DNA from: Chaetoderma sp. LZ-2023a | Taxonomy: Eukaryota > Mollusca > Caudofoveata > Chaetodermatida > Chaetodermatidae | Direction: 5' to 3' | Assembly (NCBI GenBank): GCA_034401795.1 | Contig: CM067370.1 | Coordinates: forward strand, 99,146,164-99,210,163 | Length of the DNA stretch: 64,000 bases | Part shown: in pieces, positions 25,601 to 28,600 of the stretch | Numbering within the stretch: position 1 is the stretch's first letter | Layout: every line of letters starts with the position of its first letter | The notes under the pieces: generated by a model | Told to the model about the DNA's origin: nothing | Seen by the model: only the letters and a program-made list of their open reading frames with translations | Database searches by the model: none | Translations under genes and position numbers: made by a program

Positions 25601-28600
25601 TCCTCAGCCAGCATTTTTACCTGCCTCAGGGCACCACCCAGTGCCTTGTCGTCCTGTTCATGGTACAGAAATATGTTTGTCTTCAGTCCTTTACGTGTGA
25701 TGAAATTGACTTCAAGGTCATCGTTATCATAGTAAACATTTTCAATGCCGGCAGCACAGTAATTCTTGGACATTCCATCAAGCTTGACCAGCACTCAGCA
25801 GGTCCCTTCATAAAGATCTGTGATTCGTTTCATCGGTTTAATGCCAGTGAGTTGGGCTGACTTAGTGAAGACACGCTTTCTCTCACATCTACTCACTCTA
25901 GGTGTTTCTGCTTGTGCTTCCTCCTGTTCCTTGTTTGCTTTCTCATAAGCTTCGTTTGCCCTGCATTTAATTGCTTTTCAGTTCTTCCATTTCATTTTTT
26001 TCTTGTTTCCATTACTGCTCTTCTTAACTGCTATGCCCCAGACTTACACGTTTCCCGGGTGAAACTTGGAGACGCTTTGCCAGCTTCTTTCTTCGCACCT
26101 CATCAACGCCACGTATATCCTGAAAACCTACATAAATGCAGCATTCGATAATAGCAGCATTTTGCGGTGCCCGATCTTCGTTGGTGGGTTGGGTTGGGTT
26201 GGTGGCTGTGGGATACAGCTTAAAACCGGGCCAGGATTATAAGTTATAATACCACATTTTAGGAAACCGGCCCTGCCATTTTCAAAGGTCGTATACATCT
26301 TTTGGGATGGAAATACACCTCCCTTCGGCCGCCCTCTTCTATTTATCAAGGAGCTGTCGCTAGAATACCTTCATTGGCCGAAGAAAGGCTACGCCCCAGG
26401 GCTGCGTGAAGTGGGTAGAAATCGGCGCTAAAAGAAGGAGGGAAATGTTCTCTTCTTCACACTTTTCAGTCACATGGGCAGAAAGATGGTTACTCAGATT
26501 ATCTTCAATCACTAGCTTTTAGCCTATGTATGACAGCACAACATTAATAAACAAATTTCCAAAGCAAGTATTGTCAGATCGACCACTCTTACTACGATTG
26601 TATCAATAGTTTTCAGGACCGCCATTTACCCAGGTATCATACAAGTGCTTTGTCTTGTAAACTACGAGATATGGCAACGCTGATCCATCCCCATCTGCAG
26701 CAAGCATCAAGGAGGTGGACGATTTGGATACGGTTCGAACTCTGGATATCTAGATCATCGTGTGACTATGAGCTTTTCCACTCAGGGTCATCAATTTATG
26801 ATGTTGCTTTCTGGTGTTTTTCATGATGTGCTAGAAGTAGGATTTTGTCGGGTCAAGACTCAGTTTTGCACGTGCGAGTTTAATGTTTTGTGAAAGTCTC
26901 TCAGATAGCTGTCTGTTATACCGCTTCATGGAACCTTTAGCCCACTCAATTCCTGGAAGATTGTTGCTGAATGCTTTTATAGTCATTCATCGGCGGCCAA
27001 GGTAAGCATTGACAATTATCCTTAAAGCCACCAGAGTCAACGGGAACCACTATTTGCCACACCAAATTAGTCTTTGAGACAACATTTATCCTTCTCAGTG
27101 GAAAGAGCAGTTTGGCCCCCTGGTTTGCCACAATGCAGTCCTCTGACGTGGTAATAAAGGGTGCATCGTTTCACATTATAATGATATGCTGATTTGCGAA
27201 TAGTCCACCCACTTTATTTCAGTGGTTTAGCAGCCGCTGATAACATTTCAGAAGTTGCAGTATTCATGGGACGTCCTCCAACCTTCTTCTTATAGATCCA
27301 TGGCATAGTTCTGTATGTCCGAACTCACATCACTCTGCAATGGAAAATATGCACAACATTTTAATGTTCAAAGTTCTTAAAGTTAAAACAAGCAAAATGA
27401 TACAATATCAGGCATACACATTAGTCAGAATGGTCAAACTTTAAAGAAATCATAATTGGAGTATGATCACTTTTATAGGCATCTGGCTTCAGAGAAAATT
27501 TGGAAAAAATAAAAATAAAACCTTAAAAATTGGTATCAGGCTTGAGCATCTTGTCTACCCATATAAATTTTAATTTTGACACAAATTATAAGAATATGCT
27601 AAAGCTTTTGTACATTTCCCAGCCTACTGTCTGAATTCACCCTGCTGTCTGCGTTCACCCCAGATTACGGTACCACAAATGTTTGTCTACTATTACATTA
27701 TATTGCATGTATTAGATGCAGCTATCTAATCACAATGCATACACTCAGCACTAGCAATTCATGAATCCGGTTTCTCAGACAATTGTATGACGTCATAATC
27801 AACTACGGCACATATAGACTGACGTCATCATTAATTACGTCATGAATGACGTAAGTCACAAACGCTTACTAGTCCATCAAGTTGTATGAATTGCATGTCT
27901 TTAGTATTTAATAAACATTCTGTTGGCTATTTTAAAACTAATTTGACTAGGCGCTGTTGCTGTCATAGGCGACAACAGCACCTCGTTACATTAGTTTCAA
28001 AATATTCAACAGCTTACTTGTCTATTTTTGAGGGTCATGGAGTGTAGGGATCGATCGAACCCAACACGTGCAAAGCGTGTGTGGAACTTAGCTAGTGAAG
28101 GGCGGGCATTGATAAAACTCTATTCCTCCATTCTATTTTAATGTTCCAAAAGCCATCTGGAAAGGGCGCCGAGAATGGGCTATTGGATAATGCGACTAAA
28201 TCGCCCCCAAACCAAGAGCTGGAACTGATATCATCAGAAAATACTATAGAGAGGGCTCAAGAAAAGCATGCAGAGCATACAGCCGTTGAGAAGCACGGTC
28301 ACGGACACGGCCTTGGCGTGTCGATTGAGCAGAATGATACAAAGGGTCAAATGACGAGTCTCGCGTTGATGCTGTTAACAGGCGACGGAATCCACAAGAC
28401 CATGGACGGCTTGGCAATTGGGGTAGCTTTCACAGAAAACGTATTTCTCGGAGTCAGTGTCTCTCTCGCAATCGTGTCAGAGGAATTGCCTCACGAACTT
28501 GGTAGGTATGCAATATATTTGACACTCATTTGCAAACATTACTTTCAATCTTTTCTTTTGTCTAGTCTGTTGAAACAACTAATTCCATAAAAAGTAACTG

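Follow-up and report, generated by a model that had tools for sequence, protein, structure and literature searches.

A ZIP14/ZIP8-like gene of Chaetoderma with lysine at the asparagine position of the TM4 metal-site motif: a candidate one-metal transporter

What becomes of a ZIP14/ZIP8-type metal transporter when the asparagine that its relatives contribute to the M2 metal site is replaced by lysine? The question is raised by gene 1, encoded in a 64-kb stretch of contig CM067370.1 of Chaetoderma sp. LZ-2023a (hereafter, the window). A preliminary description of this locus, based on the sequence, offered three options: that the Lys stands in for the second metal, that it alters selectivity or that it makes a ZIP that does not transport.

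Gene 1 consists of seven exons separated by GT-AG introns, with 546 codons uninterrupted by a stop (Table 1), which bears out the intact frame and splice sites of the preliminary description; judged from its sequence, it is an intact ZIP14/ZIP8-like transporter gene. Of the seven exons, exon 1 is the least secure and has an alternative start ATG at 4219. It gave no match in the tblastn search for N-terminal exons, in which exon 2 was matched, and was read from the ORF lists as an open frame that joins exon 2 in phase. This exon provides a cysteine-pair spacing also present in the chiton relative P0001, and its inclusion reproduces exactly the earlier residue numbering, with HKTMDG containing His399 and Lys400; numbers in the 394-residue core, which leaves exon 1 out, are the full numbers minus 152. 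The Lys codon had been correctly read as AAG but misplaced at 28405-28407, which is the GAC of Asp403.

Table 1. Features of the window (positions counted from its first nucleotide).
Feature	Position	Strand	Content or basis
Gene 1, whole	4204-32519	+	
Gene 1 exon 1	4204-4659	+	152 codons; signal-peptide-like start, EF-hand-like stretch, part of extracellular domain
Gene 1 exon 2	19620-19818	+	Remaining extracellular domain; tblastn with P0002 (7.7e-7); AG/GT borders
Gene 1 exon 3	21450-21619	+	TM1-TM2; tblastn with P0001 and P0002; splice borders
Gene 1 exon 4	22170-22298	+	TM3; tblastn, splice borders
Gene 1 exon 5	28153-28501	+	His-containing loop, TM4 (HKTMDG), TM5 (EELPHE); tblastn, splice borders
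Lys400, AAG	28396-28398	+	Replaces Asn of HNxxD
Gene 1 exon 6	29264-29451	+	TM6-TM7; tblastn, splice borders
Cys455, TGT	29323-29325	+	TM6; Phe in 87/92 Asn-type relatives
Ser461, AGC	29341-29343	+	Aligns with BbZIP E240 (M2)
Val496, GTT	29446-29448	+	Replaces TM7 Asp (ZIP8 D410)
Gene 1 exon 7	32370-32519	+	TM8 and stop; tblastn
Gene 2 (ZIP paralogue) TM8 exon	55610-55759	-	With stop; tblastn
Gene 2 TM6-TM7 exon	62341-62528	-	tblastn; TM7 Asp kept
Tc1/mariner-type transposase frame	38942-39913	+	HTH_Tnp_Tc3_2 and/or DDE_3
Tc1/mariner-type transposase frame	40560-41699	-	HTH_Tnp_Tc3_2 and/or DDE_3
Tc1/mariner-type transposase frame	56263-56916	+	HTH_Tnp_Tc3_2 and/or DDE_3
Tc1/mariner-type transposase frame	57576-58253	-	HTH_Tnp_Tc3_2 and/or DDE_3
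Tc1/mariner-type transposase frame	59509-60537	+	HTH_Tnp_Tc3_2 and/or DDE_3
Long simple repeat	5548-5917		Visible as monotonous frame
Long simple repeat	14780-14900		Visible as monotonous frame
Long simple repeat	36586-37071		Visible as monotonous frame

The core of gene 1 matches the Pfam Zip domain PF02535 (E 2.9e-53; 181.6 bits against a cut-off of 35.1; core residues 67-385), and its TM5 motif, EELPHE (residues 428-433), has the E-E-x-P-H-E pattern of LIV-1 transporters of the ZIP8/14 type. The TM5 motif of subfamily II (ZIP1-3), H-K/E with loss of the M2 acid (PMC9530640), is absent. Domain, TM5 motif and tree position place the predicted protein among ZIPs of the ZIP14/8 kind (LIV-1), of which it is a variant by its TM4 motif, HKTMD instead of HNxxD. 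TM4 reads D-G-I-H399-K400-T-M-D403-G and TM5 E428-E429-L-P-H432-E, and the remaining M1 and M2 side chains of the two helices are all retained. When the 327-residue membrane portion of gene 1 was compared with the PDB sequences, nothing was returned at E 0.001; a search with a profile of 52 relatives led to BbZIP.

Three protein searches provided 175 listed homologues (the best 120 of 137, plus 28, plus 27). At the position of Lys400, 169 of these have Asn, four have Lys and two have a gap. Within the closest group, defined by TM5 E-(E/D)-x-P-H-E (97 proteins, 96 of them readable), 92 are Asn-types and four are Lys-types. All four Lys-types come from freshwater snails, namely, Lymnaea stagnalis (P0023), Bulinus truncatus (P0121), Physella acuta (P0122) and Biomphalaria glabrata (P0123). 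This sample favours Lys, because P0123, P0122 and P0121 were obtained by a query on the Lys region of P0023, which itself came from the search with gene 1. The last 27 of the 175 homologues came from a query focused on the HK region of gene 1, and none of them has Lys. The same four snail genera carry Asn-type copies (P0026 and P0033; P0045 and P0124; P0030 and P0125; P0041, P0126 and P0129), and equal lengths of the source contigs suggest that copies lie together in Lymnaea (548,694 bases for each of three proteins) and in Bulinus (12,341,625 bases for each of three proteins, tags Btru_075039, 075041 and 075044).

For tree building, the columns of Lys400, the residue after it, Cys455 and Val496 were left out of the alignments. 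In a quick tree of 76 rows, gene 1 was joined to gene 2, a second ZIP gene, part of which lies towards the opposite end of the window (SH-aLRT 95, with 36% of columns filled in gene 2), and the pair joined a protein from the chiton Liolophura sinensis (SH-aLRT 98). The four snail Lys-types formed one clade (99), nested in a group of 19 rows (100) made up of proteins from sea slugs and from freshwater and land snails, plus one further protein. In a more careful tree of 66 rows, gene 1 was sister to the chiton ZIP14-like protein P0001 (100/96), and the Lys required two changes. A common origin of the Lys in gene 1 and the snails was rejected: a tree constrained to unite the five Lys rows is worse by 90.17 log-likelihood units (p-AU 2.35e-6). 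Given that gene 1 joins an Asn-type chiton protein and that a single Lys clade is rejected, the Asn-to-Lys change arose at least twice. Because both end branches are long (0.84 in gene 1 and 0.81 in the chiton protein), the sister relation between these two is less sure than the separation of gene 1 from the snails. By this placement alone, the source of the window would probably be a chiton or some other mollusc whose close relatives are missing from the protein set used. Conservation of the Lys among orthologues, a point raised in the preliminary description, is thus divided: the nearest relative, the chiton protein, has Asn, and none of the listed homologues is a closer orthologue with Lys, whereas the separate snail clade does have it.

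The Lys-types share two further features. The residue following Asn is Phe in 86 of the 92 Asn-types (Leu in four, Ile in two), whereas the residues following Lys in the five Lys-types, including gene 1, are Thr, Met, Leu, Ala and Leu, never Phe. Gene 2 and each of the five Lys-types have Cys at the position of Cys455; among the Asn-types this position is Phe in 87, a gap in three and Cys in two, the chiton protein and one scallop protein. Because the chiton protein pairs Cys with Asn, the Cys may be older than the Lys in the lineage of gene 1. Both positions are more variable in the other 78 homologues, of which 54 have Phe after Asn and two have the TM6 Cys. Co-change of Phe and Cys with Lys could not be proven, as two independent pairs put significance out of reach. 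At the position of Ser461, Ser is common to gene 1 and gene 2, Cys is found in 69 of the 92 Asn-types, and the snail Lys-types have Cys, Gly, Cys and Gly.

The preliminary description mentioned neither Val496 nor gene 2. The Asp that Val496 replaces corresponds to ZIP8 D410, BbZIP E276 and ZIP4 D604 (PMC12753238) and is present in 156 of the 175 listed homologues, among them the four snail Lys-types, and in gene 2; outside gene 1, Val occupies this position in one listed homologue, P0138. Both P0138 and Nematostella P0070, which has Ala, are ZIP14-like proteins that lack the TM7 Asp and keep HN. Across 54 columns conserved at 90% or more, gene 1 departs at nine (16.7%, rank 5 of 98; median 1.9%, chiton protein 11.3%). 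Departures 112 and 303 (core numbers) are common to the chiton protein, and 303, 345 and 391 to gene 2, in which five of the nine positions are represented. Given these shared changes, the divergence of gene 1 is in part a property of the lineage.

Gene 2 (55610-62528, minus strand) is ZIP14-like, lies tail-to-tail with gene 1 and is identical to it at 76 of 110 aligned residues; within the 64-kb window, only its TM6-7 and TM8 exons, and no TM4 exon, were found. Comparison of the two genes gave pS 0.87 and pN 0.11 for the TM6-7 exon and pS 0.82 and pN 0.33 for the TM8 exon, values that pool both lineages, pertain to these two exons and not to the Lys exon, and come with saturated synonymous sites. 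In TM6-7, amino-acid change between the two genes is held back. Elsewhere in the window, frames beginning at 38227 (minus strand) and 46359 (plus strand) have starts near-identical to those of the Tc1/mariner-type frames. A short element recurs by eye at 17830-17930, 30870-30950, 32760-32850 and elsewhere. Its arms resemble TTTTGAAACTAATTTGAC and the reverse complement of that sequence, it lies close to stretches similar to TGACGTCAT, and it looks like a dispersed family of small inverted repeats.

How, then, might the altered site work? We give an even chance to gene 1 being a working, selected metal transporter of the ZIP14/8 type (LIV-1) in which a built-in Lys replaces the M2 metal, and a one-metal (M1-only) ZIP is the most likely reading of its sequence. 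The ammonium group of Lys400 would reach from TM4 towards the M2 acids Asp403 and Glu429 and, since it would occupy M2, the substrate would be held by M1 alone (His399, Asp403, Glu428 and His432). Weaker binding at M1, easier release and a changed dependence on pH or bicarbonate would be expected. Because the TM7 Asp is Val496, the substrate would probably be Zn/Cd rather than Fe/Mn. Altered selectivity, another of the three options, is plausible. There are precedents for such a site. Human ZIP2 has been modelled with Lys203, which is second in the TM5 motif, placing its amino group where the second metal would otherwise be, and Lys203 mutants are reported to lose much or all Cd transport with unchanged apparent affinity (PMC6527156). 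Similarly, the BbZIP variants D208K and E240K still bind Zn at M1, with apparent Kd values of 35 and 23 uM versus 1.5 uM (PMC11952358). Given that TM4 and TM5 have been handled as symmetry-related (PMC13192868), Lys400, second in the TM4 motif, would be the counterpart of ZIP2 Lys203. With this characterised precedent and the engineered BbZIP one, replacement of the metal by Lys is the best supported of the three options proposed in the preliminary description.

The main rival is a paralogue that, although expressed and under selection, transports no metal, with Lys400 and Val496 blocking the metal path and the protein serving as a sensor, a partner of another ZIP or a decoy. ZIP8, the closest characterised kind, provides grounds for caution: M2 is dispensable in BbZIP and ZIP4, yet essential in ZIP8, where N315 variants are inactive for both Fe and Cd, E344 and D318 variants are inactive as well, and D410A and D410N lose Fe transport while keeping ~50 and 60% of Cd transport (PMC12753238). 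The TM7 Asp is also required for the activity of ZIP4 (PMC12753238), and its replacement by Val is common neither to the snail Lys-types nor to gene 2. The inactive ZIP8 N315 variants and the loss of the TM7 Asp count against a one-metal transporter, as do the nine changed conserved columns, the Asn of the nearest relative, the lack of Lys in any closer listed orthologue and the dependence of the Phe and Cys co-changes on two independent pairs. Conversely, the M1 side chains of TM4-TM5 are complete, ZIP2 transports with a Lys in M2 (PMC6527156), and the dispensability of M2 in BbZIP and ZIP4 argues against a loss of transport; we consider such a loss rather unlikely. The one-metal transporter is further favoured by the intact seven-exon gene with its strong Zip domain match, the retention of the other TM4-TM5 metal-site side chains, the separately acquired Lys that the four snail members of one clade all have, the loss of Phe and presence of the TM6 Cys in all five Lys-types, the low pN relative to pS in TM6-7, and the binding of Zn at M1 by BbZIP with an M2 Lys.

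Two further explanations would make the Lys an accident. Gene 1 could be a duplicate under relaxed selection, with Lys400 and Val496 as early damage, which would fit the number of changed conserved columns, two metal-path residues among them, and the presence of a second copy that retains the TM7 Asp. This is improbable, given a reading frame of 546 codons free of stops and frameshifts, an end branch close in length to that of the Asn-type chiton protein, the restrained amino-acid change relative to gene 2 (both lineages pooled, Lys exon outside the comparison) and the fixation of the identical Lys in a separate clade. A one-base sequencing or assembly error is conceivable in a single assembly, as AAG is one base away from AAC and AAT, but very improbable: the next residue is altered too (Thr401), as in the snail Lys-types, and the residue is tolerated in four other genera. 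Since freshwater snails made the same Asn-to-Lys swap separately, Lys400 probably reflects a genuine redesign of the metal site rather than an error.

A sketch of the charges would extend the one-metal reading. A site of the ZIP8 type would contain four acids (D318, E343, E344 and D410); in gene 1, Lys would add one positive charge and Val would remove one acid, leaving a net charge of -2, to be balanced by one divalent ion, and the snail Lys-types would have a net charge of -3. We tentatively propose, with somewhat less than even confidence, that a LIV-1 ZIP using two metals was converted at least twice in molluscs into one using a single metal, alongside other ZIP14-like copies. The means would have been a Lys at the TM4 position that corresponds to the TM5 Lys of ZIP2, accompanied by the disappearance of the adjacent Phe and by a TM6 Cys; the site of gene 1, brought to -2 by the loss of the TM7 Asp, would be balanced by one divalent ion without bicarbonate.

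Whether ZIPs employ one or two metals, and what role M2 plays, is disputed. ZIP8/14-type proteins that naturally bear a positive charge in M2, present in four genera of snails and separately in a second mollusc lineage, offer a ready test of the role of M2. In the literature searched, from which subscription journals were mostly absent, we recognised no description of Lys at the M2 Asn position of a LIV-1 ZIP, and no paper on BbZIP N178K was found. A single metal site has been proposed to set subfamily II apart from LIV-1 (PMC6527156); if M2 is truly lost, gene 1 and the snail Lys-types would break this rule.

Among the known systems, gene 1 most resembles human ZIP8 and ZIP14 (SLC39A8/A14) in the Zip domain, His399, Asp403, the E-E-x-P-H-E motif of TM5, the extracellular domain and its place in the tree among ZIP14-like proteins, and differs from them in that Lys replaces the M2 Asn and Val replaces the TM7 Asp. 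With human ZIP2 (SLC39A2, subfamily II), in which Lys203 has been assigned to the place of M2 and M1 is kept (PMC6527156), it would share the principle, although the Lys is at the second position of the TM5 motif in ZIP2 and of the TM4 motif in gene 1, which keeps Glu429 in TM5. Gene 1 may therefore work like ZIP2 yet stand outside subfamily II, as it lacks the TM5 motif of that subfamily. BbZIP D208K and E240K likewise have Lys in M2 (PMC11952358), but are laboratory variants with the Lys in TM5 and TM6. The snail Lys-types resemble gene 1 in HKxxDG, the lack of Phe after the Lys and the TM6 Cys, but are of independent origin and retain the TM7 Asp. A structure model of one of them, Lymnaea P0023 (not of gene 1), has a mean pLDDT of 83.7 and a pTM of 0.74, and a fold search with this model gave eight PDB matches at E <=0.001, all to BbZIP (TM-score by target 0.57-0.74, rmsd 8.5-10.9).
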